Shown: one piece after another, positions 4,649-7,975 of the stretch | Layout of the letters: the number at the start of each line of letters is the position of its first letter | How positions within the stretch are numbered: position 1 is the first letter of the stretch | Origin: an uncultured Actinomycetes bacterium | GTDB taxonomy: Bacteria; Actinomycetota; Acidimicrobiia; Acidimicrobiales; Microtrichaceae | DNA: 49,982 nt | Assembly: GCA_903925745.1 (NCBI GenBank) | Contig: CAIYGQ010000076.1 | Coordinates: 1-49,982 of the forward strand | Direction of reading: 5' to 3' | Notes under the pieces: generated by a model | The model's database searches: none | Told to the model about the DNA's origin: nothing | What the model saw: only the letters and a program-made list of their open reading frames with translations | Translations under genes and position numbers: made by a program

Positions 4649-5014
4649 TCAGTAGCCCATCGCCCGGCGGAACTCCTGGCCGACGACCATGGACTGGCCC
4701 ATCCGGCTGATCCACTCCTGCATGGCCGGGCCGAACACCGCCGGGTCGTAGCCGAGCTCACCCGACAGGGCGATCACCCCGCCCTCATCGGTGATGCCGC
4801 GGGCCTGGGCCTCCTTGGCGACGTGGGCGTACTCGGGGATGCCGATGCCGTTGATGGGCTGCAGCAGCGGGTCGTCCGGTGACAGCGGCTGGGTCGACGG
4901 TCCGCCCAGGATCGCCGGGTCGACCGGCATCCCCGACACTCCGAGTTGACCCTCACCGGTCGCACCGGTGCCGACCTGACCGACACCATCCTTGATCTTC
5001 TTGAACAACCCCAC
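4649..5014 (-). CDS. small hypothetical protein (121 aa) downstream of crp
   Basis: I do not recognise this protein. It begins MGLFKKIKDGVG, an amphipathic basic start, followed by a Gly/Pro-rich stretch and then a helical C-terminal half ending in QEFRRAMGY. No signal peptide or transmembrane helix is visible, and no cysteine occurs. The GTG start at 5014 has a GGGAG element about 7 nt upstream. The gene lies 41 bp behind the Crp-family gene on the same strand, so the two are likely cotranscribed, and it converges with the hydrolase gene on the other strand. Confidence 0.7.
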   Translation of the reverse strand: MGLFKKIKDGVGQVGTGATGEGQLGVSGMPVDPAILGGPSTQPLSPDDPLLQPINGIGIPEYAHVAKEAQARGITDEGGVIALSGELGYDPAVFGPAMQEWISRMGQSMVVGQEFRRAMGY

Positions 5015-5055: not shown

Positions 5056-5715
5056 TCAGCTCGAGCGGATCTCGAGCTCGCGGCGGTTCAGGATCCGGTA
5101 CTGGCGGTCCTGCTGTTCGATCCAGCCGAGCTTCAGGAAGCTGGCGATCGCCTTGTTGACCCGTTCCCGCGAGGCGCCGACCAGGCCGGCCAGCTCCTCC
5201 TGGGTGATCGGGATCTCGAACTCGTCACGATCCCCGGCCAGGTCGAGCAGGTGCTTCGCGGTCCGGCCGGTGACGTCCAGGAAGAAGGCATCGGCCAGAG
5301 CCTCGTCGGTCGCGCGGATCCGCTGGCTCAGCAGTCGGACCACCGACCACAACAGGTCGGGGCGATCGTCCCAGACGGCGCGGAGCGCGTCGTAGGGGAT
5401 CCGGATGGCCTGGGACGATTCGAGCGCCCGGGCCTCGGCCGAGCGGCCCATGCCGTCGAAGAGGCCCATCTCGCCGAACAGGTCGCCCCGTTCCATGAGT
5501 GCCACCATCGACTCCCGTCCGTCGACCGAGCGGTTGGAGATGGCGATGCGGCCGTCGGTCACCACGTAGCACGCGTCGGCCTCGGAGCCCTCCTCGAACA
5601 GGACGTCGCCACGGACGAGGTCCAGCAGCTCGGCGGCGTCGGCCACCCGCCGGTGTTCGTCGTCGCTGAACTCGCCGAACAGATCCACGTCGCGCAGCAG
5701 GCTCATGTCGCTCAC
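5056..5715 (-). CDS. Crp/Fnr family transcriptional regulator
   Basis: A 219-residue regulator with an N-terminal cyclic-nucleotide-binding beta-roll and a C-terminal winged helix-turn-helix (ITQEELAGLVGASRERVNKA). The phosphate-binding cassette reads FGEMGLFDGMGRSAEARA; its Arg-Ser pair is the one that contacts cAMP in Crp proteins, so cAMP binding is plausible. It resembles mycobacterial Crp (Rv3676). I chose the GTG at 5715 rather than the longer form starting at 5760 because a TACAGT -10 element ends exactly 7 nt before it. Its promoter overlaps that of the divergent ispD. Confidence 0.9.
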   Translation of the reverse strand: MSDMSLLRDVDLFGEFSDDEHRRVADAAELLDLVRGDVLFEEGSEADACYVVTDGRIAISNRSVDGRESMVALMERGDLFGEMGLFDGMGRSAEARALESSQAIRIPYDALRAVWDDRPDLLWSVVRLLSQRIRATDEALADAFFLDVTGRTAKHLLDLAGDRDEFEIPITQEELAGLVGASRERVNKAIASFLKLGWIEQQDRQYRILNRRELEIRSS

Positions 5716-5722
5716 GGGCGAG

Positions 5723-5732
5723 ACTGTACCGT
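5723..5732. promoter_or_regulatory. Overlapping divergent -10 elements of crp and ispD
   Basis: On the plus strand TACCGT (5727-5732) sits 7 nt before the ispD GTG at 5740. On the minus strand TACAGT (complement of 5723-5728) sits 7 nt before the crp GTG at 5715. The two hexamers share the TA at 5727-5728, so both leaderless genes start from one nearly symmetric element. Confidence 0.65.
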
Positions 5733-5739
5733 GCCGGTC

Positions 5740-6498
5740 GTGGACTCCCTCCTCGGCCAAGGTCGGCCGCCGGATCCTCCCACCGTTGGTGTCTGGTGCA
5801 TCGTGGTGGCCGCGGGCTCCGGTCGCCGTTTCGGCGGCGCGAAGCAGTTCGAGCTCCTCGACGGCGAGCGGGTCGTCGACCGGAGCGTCCGGATCGCTGC
5901 CGCCTGCTGCGAGGGGGTGGTGCTCGTCGTCCCACCTGAACTCGTGTCGTCACCGGCCGTCAGGGTGGACGGCGCGACCAGCGTGGTGGCCGGAGGCGCC
6001 ACGCGCGCCGCGTCGGTCCGCAGTGGCCTGGCCGTCGTTCCGGAATCGGCCCGGGTGATCCTGGTGCACGACGCCGCGCGACCGGCTGCGTCGCCGGAAC
6101 TCTTCCACCGGGTCGTCGACGCGGTGCTCGGAGGCGCCGACGCGGTGGTGCCGGTCGTGCCCGTCGTGGACACGATCCGTCGGACGGACGGCACGGTCGT
6201 GGACCGGGATGACCTGCGGGCGGTCCAGACCCCCCAGGGGTTCGCATCGGCGGCGCTGCGAGCGGCGCACGCGGACGGCGACGACGCCTCCGACGACGCA
6301 GCGCTGGTGCAGGCCGCCGGTGGCCGACTCCGGCTGGTGGACGGTGAGCCCCGGAACCTGAAGCTCACCGGCCCCGACGACCTGGTGGTGCTCCGGGCGT
6401 TCCTCCGGGGCGACGACGGTGGCTCGACCGACGCGTTCGGGGATGCCCGCCGGTCGGGTGGTGCCCGGGTCGACGGTGGGGGAGACTCGGCGACGTGA
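5740..6498 (+). CDS. ispD: 2-C-methyl-D-erythritol 4-phosphate cytidylyltransferase IspD
   Basis: IspD couples MEP with CTP to give CDP-methylerythritol in the non-mevalonate isoprenoid pathway. The 252-residue product has the nucleotide-binding signature AAGSGRRFG with the following AKQF (24-37), a central ILVHDAARP motif, and VQTPQGF late in the domain. The GTG start at 5740 is set by the -10 element 7 nt upstream; longer in-frame extensions would run into crp on the other strand. The C-terminal ~30 residues are Gly/Asp/Arg-rich and probably disordered. Its stop overlaps the ispF start (GTGA), so the two are coupled. Confidence 0.94.
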   Translation: MDSLLGQGRPPDPPTVGVWCIVVAAGSGRRFGGAKQFELLDGERVVDRSVRIAAACCEGVVLVVPPELVSSPAVRVDGATSVVAGGATRAASVRSGLAVVPESARVILVHDAARPAASPELFHRVVDAVLGGADAVVPVVPVVDTIRRTDGTVVDRDDLRAVQTPQGFASAALRAAHADGDDASDDAALVQAAGGRLRLVDGEPRNLKLTGPDDLVVLRAFLRGDDGGSTDAFGDARRSGGARVDGGGDSAT

Positions 6499-6983
6499 CG
6501 TTCCGGGTCGGCAACGGCTTCGACATCCACCGCTTCAGCGACGATCCGTCGCGGCCGCTCGTCCTCGGTGGCGTCGAGATCCCGGGTGAGGTGGGCCTGC
6601 ACGGTCACTCCGACGCCGACGTGGTCGCGCACGCGGTCGCGGACGCGCTCCTCGGGTCGGTCGGTCTGGGTGACATCGGTCAGCTCTTCCCCGACACCGA
6701 CGATCGGTGGCGTGGCGCCGACAGTCTCGGCCTGCTCGCCGAGGTGGTCCGGCGCCTGGACGCCGACGGGTGGCGGGTCGTGAACGTCGACTGCTCGGTG
6801 GTGGCCGAGCGTCCCGCCATCGGACCCCATCGTGATGAGATGCGTCGCCGGTTGGCCGAGGTCGTGCGCGCGGAGGTGTCGATCAAGGGTCGTCGTGCCG
6901 AGGGGATCGGTGGCCTCGGTCGGGCCGAGGGGATCGCGTGCCTGGCCAGCGTGCTGGTCGAACGATCGGACGGCCCGTCGTGA
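6495..6983 (+). CDS. ispF: 2-C-methyl-D-erythritol 2,4-cyclodiphosphate synthase IspF
   Basis: IspF converts CDP-ME-2-phosphate to the cyclic diphosphate MEcPP, the step after IspE in the MEP pathway. The 162 residues match the usual family length. The metal-binding motif GNGFDIHRF near the N-terminus and GHSDADVVAHAVADALLG are intact, as is the Asp-rich LFPDTD loop. It overlaps ispD upstream and rlmB downstream by 4 bp each, giving one translationally coupled unit. cysS, often found between ispF and rlmB in Actinobacteria, is absent here. Confidence 0.95.
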   Translation: MTFRVGNGFDIHRFSDDPSRPLVLGGVEIPGEVGLHGHSDADVVAHAVADALLGSVGLGDIGQLFPDTDDRWRGADSLGLLAEVVRRLDADGWRVVNVDCSVVAERPAIGPHRDEMRRRLAEVVRAEVSIKGRRAEGIGGLGRAEGIACLASVLVERSDGPS

Positions 6984-7975
6984 GTGGTCCGAGGTCATCG
7001 GGCGGTCGTGGGGGCGGCCGCAGCGGGGGTGGGCGCAGCGGCGGTCGTGGCGGTGGCCGGGGTGACGCCCGCGGCGGCGGCCGGTCCCCGGGCGGATCCG
7101 GCGGCCGCAGCGGTGGACCGGGTCGCGGCCCCAAGCGATCCTCGTCCGGTCCCGAGCGTGGTCGTGGCCGGTCCACCTCCCGCCAGGTCGGGCGGACGAC
7201 CGCACCGAAGGAACGCGGGCTCGGGGGTACCCAGGTGGAGGGCCGCCAGGCCGTCCGGGAGCTGCTGCTGGCCGGTCGGCGGACCGCCTACGAGGTGCTC
7301 CTGTCGACCGAGGTGGACCGGAGCGACGTCGTCGCGGACATCGTCGACCTGGCCGACGAGTTGCGCGTCCCGGTCACCGAGGTCTCGCGCGGCCGACTGG
7401 ACTCACTCGCGCGGACCGATGCACCCCAGGGAGTCGTCGCCCGGGCCGCAGAGCTCCCCGACGTGGAGCTCGAGGTCCTGCTCCGCCCGTCTCCGGCCGG
7501 CGCCGACGGAACGGGATCCCACCCGTTCCTGTTGGCCGTCGACGGTGTGACGGATCCGGGCAACCTGGGCGCGCTGTTGCGCATCGCCGAGTGCGCCGGC
7601 GTCACGGGCGTGGTGCTCCCGCGGCATCGGGCGGTGCACGTCACCCCGACGGTCACCAAGGCGGCGGCCGGCGCCGTCGAGTACTTGTCGATGAGCCTGG
7701 TCGCCGGTCTGGCGACCGCGGTCTCCACCATGCGCGACGCCGGAGTGTGGGTGGTCGGCCTGGACGCCGAGGGTGACACGTCGATCCATGGGCTTCCGGT
7801 CGCGGACGCACCGGTGTGCCTGGTCGTCGGCGCGGAGGGCCCGGGACTCTCGACGCTCGTCCGGCAGCGCTGCGACGTCCTGGCCTCGATCCCGCTGCAC
7901 GGGCGACTGGCCTCGCTGAACGTGGCCACGGCCGGTGCGGTCGCCTGCTACGAGGTGGCCCGGCAACGCTCGTGA
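6980..7975 (+). CDS. rlmB: 23S rRNA 2'-O-methyltransferase RlmB / TrmH family, with RG-rich N-terminal extension
   Basis: A SPOUT-class methyltransferase of 331 residues, expected to methylate a ribose in 23S rRNA (RlmB, G2251 in E. coli numbering). The substrate-binding domain begins near residue 80 (GTQVEGRQAVRELL), followed by the SPOUT motifs DGVTDPGNLGALLR, VVGAEGPGLS and IPLHGRLASLNVATA, all intact. Residues 2-70 form a low-complexity Arg/Gly/Ser tail with RGGGR and GGRSGG repeats, resembling RGG RNA-binding segments. The GTG at 6980 overlaps the ispF stop. Confidence 0.9.
   Translation: MSGPRSSGGRGGGRSGGGRSGGRGGGRGDARGGGRSPGGSGGRSGGPGRGPKRSSSGPERGRGRSTSRQVGRTTAPKERGLGGTQVEGRQAVRELLLAGRRTAYEVLLSTEVDRSDVVADIVDLADELRVPVTEVSRGRLDSLARTDAPQGVVARAAELPDVELEVLLRPSPAGADGTGSHPFLLAVDGVTDPGNLGALLRIAECAGVTGVVLPRHRAVHVTPTVTKAAAGAVEYLSMSLVAGLATAVSTMRDAGVWVVGLDAEGDTSIHGLPVADAPVCLVVGAEGPGLSTLVRQRCDVLASIPLHGRLASLNVATAGAVACYEVARQRS

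Follow-up and report, generated by a model that had tools for sequence, protein, structure and literature searches.

Bidirectional bacterial promoters arising from symmetry of the −10 element were reportedly described by Warman et al. in 2021. As defined in the available text of PMC10268837, such promoters have divergent start pairs 7–25 bp apart, and among the distances given in the excerpt of PMC12825309, 18 bp is the commonest, with 10 and 23 bp also common. The leaderless genes of actinobacteria, in turn, are described as carrying a TANNNT hexamer a few nucleotides before an ATG or GTG, with no conserved −35 element (PMC3160421, PMC3898074), and they average 19.2% in Actinobacteria according to the text seen of PMC3160421. 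Divergent pairs with leaderless members have also been reported. In Mycobacterium tuberculosis, prpD and Rv1129c diverge and both are leaderless by start-site mapping (excerpt of PMC3898074), and in the csoR–cueA divergon of Bradyrhizobium the −10 elements overlap and the regulator mRNA is leaderless (excerpt of PMC5057107).

The locus considered here lies in a window of 49,982 bp (~71% GC), the whole stretch of DNA analysed, from a 3.6 Mb assembly in 338 contigs; in it, a crp-type regulator gene and ispD diverge from start codons separated by 24 bp. Like the −10-symmetry promoters, the locus has −10 DNA that would be common to two opposite transcripts, with loading that is predicted to be mutually exclusive, and its predicted starts (5715 and 5740) are 25 bp apart, at the upper limit of that class as delimited in the excerpt; if the spacers of such a shared-TA core were 6 nt long, the starts would be 23 bp apart. 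Unlike the commonest form in the excerpted accounts, in which positions −7 and −11 coincide and the starts are 18 bp apart, crp and ispD share only a TA and are predicted to be leaderless on both sides. Both genes have a TANNNT a few nucleotides from a GTG, as do the actinobacterial leaderless genes; the latter are treated singly in the portions available of PMC3160421 and PMC3898074, whereas crp and ispD would place two leaderless starts on one element. As with prpD/Rv1129c, an enzyme gene and a regulator gene diverge, leaderlessness being mapped there (PMC3898074) and predicted here. As with csoR–cueA, where the partner is a transporter gene, a regulator gene diverges from its neighbour over overlapping −10s; unlike crp/ispD, csoR–cueA has only one leaderless side, and the box of its regulator covers the core, as far as the excerpt of PMC5057107 describes it. 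On its sequence, crp/ispD is best read as a probable combination of the known symmetric-promoter class with known actinobacterial leaderless starts. A search of a limited literature collection (leaderless with bidirectional or divergent promoters; leaderless genes in Acidimicrobiia) returned no doubly leaderless shared −10, and within the literature searched the new element appears to be the pairing of leaderless starts over one shared TA, an arrangement both conserved and recurrent in the family.

The crp–ispD intergenic region and its flanking genes

The regulator gene (5056–5715, minus strand), predicted to be leaderless with a GTG start at 5715–5713, encodes cNMP_binding (PF00027) and HTH_Crp_2 (PF13545) domains, both above the Pfam cut-off, which is the architecture of a Crp/Fnr regulator. 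The solved chains closest to the protein, 3h3u, 3mzh and 3d0s, belong to Crp/Fnr-family regulators, and 4cyd is also among the best; 3h3u, 3d0s and 4cyd are actinobacterial regulators (M. tuberculosis CRP and C. glutamicum GlxR). The NCBIfam equivalog for E. coli-type CRP, NF008732, gave 99.4 bits against a cut-off of 266, short of an assignment. On the plus strand, ispD (5740–6498), also predicted to be leaderless, with the predicted transcription start at the first base of its GTG at 5740, encodes a Pfam IspD domain (PF01128) at residues 19–223, and the NCBIfam model TIGR00453 scores slightly below its cut-off. The end of ispD is overlapped by ispF (6495–6983, plus strand; PF02542, TIGR00151 above cut-off), which is likely on the same transcript, followed by a gene for an rlmB-type 23S rRNA 2'-O-methyltransferase (6984–7975, plus strand; TIGR00186 above cut-off for 6938–7972), whose listed frame begins at 6938 and whose start at 6984 is provisional. 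Downstream of crp, a 121-aa ORF (4649–5014, minus strand) had no Pfam or NCBIfam match.

Between the two genes the sequence reads CAC (5713–5715)-N7-ACTGTACCGT-N7-GTG (5740–5742). On the plus strand, TACCGT (5727–5732) is followed after seven nucleotides by the GTG of ispD, and on the minus strand TACAGT (5728–5723) is followed, also after seven, by the GTG of crp. T5727 and A5728 belong to both hexamers, on opposite strands, and would be positions −12/−11 of each promoter. The core, ACNGTACNGT, is a near-palindrome with 8 of 10 positions self-complementary. When tested for the described sub-forms, only the TA (−12/−11) was common to both −10s and the reciprocal −7/−11 coincidence was absent, so the element does not belong to the commonest (18-bp) sub-form. 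By eye, the 20 nt upstream of each start are without a GGAGG-like stretch. Ranked against the leaderless −10 set of G010, a family member, the ispD hexamer falls at the 45th percentile and the crp hexamer at the 18th, neither being outstanding.

TANNNT is very rare in the window, with 16 copies on the plus strand and 17 on the minus (~0.3 per kb per strand); one example is TAGACT at 2871 before the GTG of disA at 2883. An ATG or GTG lies 6–8 nt downstream of 17 of the 33, and this, together with the rarity, makes the hexamer nearly a promoter mark in the window. Leaderless-type spacing, with TANNNT ~6–8 nt upstream of an ATG or GTG, is found at both crp and ispD (7 nt each). At the TANNNT density of the window, the probability of a hexamer 6–8 nt before one given start is ~1e-3, and before both starts ~1e-6.

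Conservation in the genus and start spacing in relatives

The arrangement CAC-N7-ACTGTACCGT-N7-RTG was kept in all six sampled genomes of the genus, including the CAC of the crp start and the shared TA. In the six-genome alignment, 15 of 15 columns in 5721–5735 are invariant, against two of nine elsewhere in the intergenic region, where the flanks drift; the corresponding Fisher p of 1e-4 is descriptive, as the six rows are related. This invariant 15-bp footprint, AGACTGTACCGTGCC, spans both −10s and 2–3 nt of each discriminator.

Alternative in-frame starts exist on both sides. For crp, an ATG at 5706 is kept in five of the six genus members and has become CTG in G002 (L005/L020, where the plus strand reads CAG); in most of the family, crp starts at the codon that aligns with 5715. 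For ispD, a GTG at 5731 is kept in six of six, and in G005 the start at the position of 5740 is an ATG replacing the GTG (L021/L095). The ATG of G005 and the loss of the crp ATG in G002 support GTG 5715 and GTG 5740 as the starts. These data bear on much of what the initial annotation had proposed. Its coordinates for the hexamers, spacers, GTGs and 24-bp gap all agree with the window sequence; the 10-bp core that it suggested following through related genomes is kept in six of six genus members; its choice of start codons gains from the same two substitutions; and its overlapping −10s serving two leaderless genes are supported in silico by spacing and conservation. The case that it regarded as contrary, crp starting at 5706 or 5760, is disfavoured by the CTG at 5706 in G002 and by the alignment of the 5715 codon.

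Of the 298 genomes searched from the order, 183 encode a Crp homologue that reaches E 1e-45 or better. We examined 110 family and order loci, hand-chosen and mostly one or a few per genus, which yielded 107 distinct crp upstream sequences. In these sequences TANNNT was counted 94 times at spacers of 6–10 nt before crp, five times at 11 nt and four times at 12–35 nt combined, whereas the comparison hexamer ATNNNT was counted five times at spacers of 6–10 nt. In 65 of 76 genera at least one member has a TANNNT 6–10 nt from the crp start. Outside the family (for example L058–L065 and L098–L156), GTG starts of crp lie mostly 6–8 nt from the −10 and ATG starts mostly 9–10 nt; the latter may have gained a leader of two or three bases in place of none. 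Of the 110 loci, 81 contained an ispD match, three of them at a distance above 600 nt; in 39 of these 81 a TANNNT precedes an in-frame start of ispD by 5–9 nt, a count from a search that misses some cases evident by eye, such as L029. Genome-wide, G010 (1.2 Mb, 1002 called genes) has 69, 83 and 55 TANNNT at spacers of 6, 7 and 8 nt before candidate starts, and at most 15 at any other spacer. Its 207 leaderless-type sites for 1002 genes are in line with the actinobacterial average of 19.2% in the text seen of PMC3160421; the gene calls come from a home-made caller that missed two of the three shared-TA pairs found by direct scan.

Recurrence of shared-TA cores at other gene pairs

The general pattern CAY-N6–8-ANNNTANNNT-N6–8-RTG occurs once in the window; its exact N7/N7 form occurs at two sites in the whole 3.6 Mb assembly and at 52 sites in 33 family genomes. 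The raw count in those genomes is not above its controls, with 48 for the pattern read backwards and 49 for its AT-swapped form. Since the window contains 348 TA steps against 1115 AT steps, a 3.2-fold deficit of TA, some excess of the TA pattern is likely, of a kind that is not decisive. Pattern counting alone was dropped as evidence, given 52 against 48 for the backwards control, and significance rests on the position between two genes and on conservation. A test requiring flanking ORFs of at least 100 codons on both sides was passed by 19 of 31 fetched TA sites (52 in all) and by none of 22 fetched AT sites (49 in all); it was also passed in G010 by 25 of the 77 control sites centred on GC or CG. 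The test was therefore downgraded, the chance rate in GC-rich DNA being high, and replaced by the presence of Pfam domains on both flanking proteins.

By this measure, eight of nine further distinct TA pairs had domains on both sides, against none of five CG-centred control pairs. The nine comprise seven pairs with N7/N7 spacing plus two that came from scanning G010 at spacers of 6–8 nt; the controls are five of the 25 sites that had passed the ORF test; and two sites, L067 (with a 13-codon frame) and L068, were left out of the nine. L068 has a Pfam domain on one side only, the 61-codon frame on its other side having none. L067 (1501–1570; C139:14348) is the other N7/N7 site in the genome of the window, and the frames that flank it are 182 and 13 codons long. 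The 13-codon frame lies on the plus side, and its stop overlaps the GTG of a downstream gene for an AMP-binding enzyme, an arrangement suggestive of coupling between a leaderless mini-ORF and that gene.

With spacers of 6–8 nt, G010 holds three shared-TA sites, all between two genes whose products have Pfam domains, compared with one site in total over non-overlapping hexamer distances of 0–12. Across the 33 family genomes, −10s lying 0, 1 and 2 bp apart at N7/N7 gave 0, 1 and 0 sites, and the TANNNTA form at N7/N7 gave three. Because they specify two additional bases, non-overlapping patterns are matched less often at random, a penalty that would not apply to true promoter pairs. The only family N7/N7 site with −10-like hexamers one base apart, L182 (G027:C44:115556–115588), is a near-perfect 33-bp palindrome, CACTCGATACATCGTAGTACGATGTATCGAGTG.

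The shared core is more widespread in the family between the genes for peptide deformylase (def) and a small-domain methyltransferase than between crp and ispD. It was found at the divergent starts of the former pair in 22 of 29 loci, including the window's own genome (spacers 7/6) and eight other family genera, and was not found in the remaining seven of the 29 def loci. The spacers are mostly 7/6 or 7/7, and in L069, L183–L210 and L087 the core is mostly ACGGTA[GC]CCT or ACGGTAGTCT. Another divergent pair of regulator and enzyme genes, in L254 (133–1672; from the G010:C1 800001–1200000 stretch set), encodes a GntR/FCD regulator and an enoyl-CoA hydratase; its shared-TA core is AGTCTACGAT, with spacers 7/8. 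The initial annotation had called doubly leaderless starts from one element striking; the geometry stands, and the adjective is tempered by its occurrence at several other gene pairs of the family and, further, by the M. tuberculosis divergent pair that is leaderless on both sides in the excerpt of PMC3898074.

Proposed mechanism, rival explanations and origin

We consider it very probable, judging from sequence comparisons, that the 24-bp gap between crp and ispD is a single doubly leaderless bidirectional promoter of the sigma-A type, whose −10s overlap on the TA. RNA polymerase would load in either orientation on the overlapping, back-to-back −10s. In the rightward reading, melting would begin from A5728 and transcription would start at 5740; in the leftward reading, the same two base pairs would be used and transcription would start at 5715. 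Each transcript would then carry a GTG at its very 5' end, so that both mRNAs would be leaderless, and the 30-bp element comprising both start codons and both −10s would hold all the core control DNA. As the same −12/−11 pairs would serve both directions, the two loadings are predicted to be mutually exclusive, and competition between crp and ispD transcription is possible. In the excerpt of PMC12825309, five bidirectional promoters of E. coli had too little basal transcription for their two directions to compete, and competition emerged only under strong activation of one direction; strong competition at crp/ispD is not assumed, given the percentile ranks of its −10s (45th for ispD, 18th for crp). 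A link of Crp to isoprenoid synthesis or, via ispF and the rlmB-type gene, to rRNA methylation is speculative and positional only.

Such a promoter would be near the smallest control region for two genes: both start codons fall within its 30 bp, and the gap between crp and ispD could not accommodate leaders, ribosome-binding sites or classical operators. It would offer conserved natural elements for studying the choice of polymerase orientation when −12/−11 are the same base pairs, and for studying how intergenic space can contract to the point of promoter merging when translation is leaderless. Tentatively, and as a possibility that we rate below an even expectation, TA-fused leaderless −10s may constitute a recurrent, selected promoter type of the family, in which ~24 bp hold the whole core control and orientation sets the protein ratio; at crp/ispD this type would have replaced separate promoters and the space for a Crp box, with feedback possibly exchanged for orientation choice.

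The Crp-like box has the consensus TGTGA-N6-TCACA. Taking at least 8 of 10 matches to this consensus within 130 nt upstream of crp as a box, we found that 23 of 108 sequences have one, where shuffling predicts 3.8; the sequences are related, and the matches fall in ~15 genera. This excess makes crp autoregulation plausible in the other genera. Among the six genus members, the best score upstream of crp was 5–6/10, and autoregulation by Crp through a box in the 24 bp was rejected for the genus. In L023, L101, L127, L058, L060, L063, L065 and others, the box lies 16–24 nt upstream of the crp start.

Several rival explanations bear on the same observations. Conservation could reflect protein binding instead of, or besides, the −10s, the near-palindrome being an operator for Crp or another dimer. 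The self-complementarity of 8 of its 10 positions and the excess of Crp-like boxes before crp in other genera (23 of 108 against 3.8) would fit; we nevertheless find this quite improbable, as the six genus members have no Crp-like box above 6/10, the def/methyltransferase cores are less palindromic yet conserved, and relatives keep the single crp −10 without the palindrome. It is unlikely, if somewhat easier to entertain, that the two promoters merely abut, both being real, with the gene of the weaker direction transcribed mainly from inside the neighbouring gene. The low score of the crp-side −10 (18th percentile) agrees with that possibility, whereas the invariance of both hexamers and of 2–3 nt beyond each throughout the genus, the rarity of TANNNT and the near-start −10 that crp, and often ispD, has of its own in relatives all speak against it.

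Start-codon choice provides a further alternative, in which crp begins at ATG 5706 or TTG 5760, or ispD at GTG 5731, so that one or both mRNAs would carry a short leader or have a different start. ATG 5706 and GTG 5731 are in frame and kept in five and six of the six genus members, respectively, but 5706 is lost in G002, GTG 5731 overlaps the −10 and is without a TANNNT 6–8 nt upstream, and the codon at 5740 is kept as GTG or ATG, leaving this alternative with a low probability. An arrangement due to chance, without function, is extremely improbable: the pattern alone is about as frequent in the family as its backwards control, yet the same gene pair retains it in six of six genus genomes while the flanks drift, and both hexamers at the given starts have a probability of ~1e-6.

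The doubly leaderless promoter, as the preferred reading, looks derived in the genus, since the promoters are separate in other family genera; where an ispD −10 was detected in them, crp and ispD start 34–138 nt apart and each has its own −10. The six shared-TA genomes group as a single clade (100/100 support) in a tree built from 50 Crp proteins, and the genus next to them, g3 (82/80), has separate promoters. The spacer was probably lost in the stem of the genus, two separate leaderless promoters having merged on the TA, which reads identically on both strands, so that one copy can serve both −10s. As a lead, the merging may have cost an autoregulatory site or followed its loss. The genus, with merged promoters, and its sister genera, with separate ones, would provide a ready evolutionary experiment. 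Outside the family, G037 has a shared core of its own, ATCGTAGATT, with spacers of 10 and 7 nt, and in G237 the two −10s are one base apart; from these arrangements, promoters may have merged more than once.
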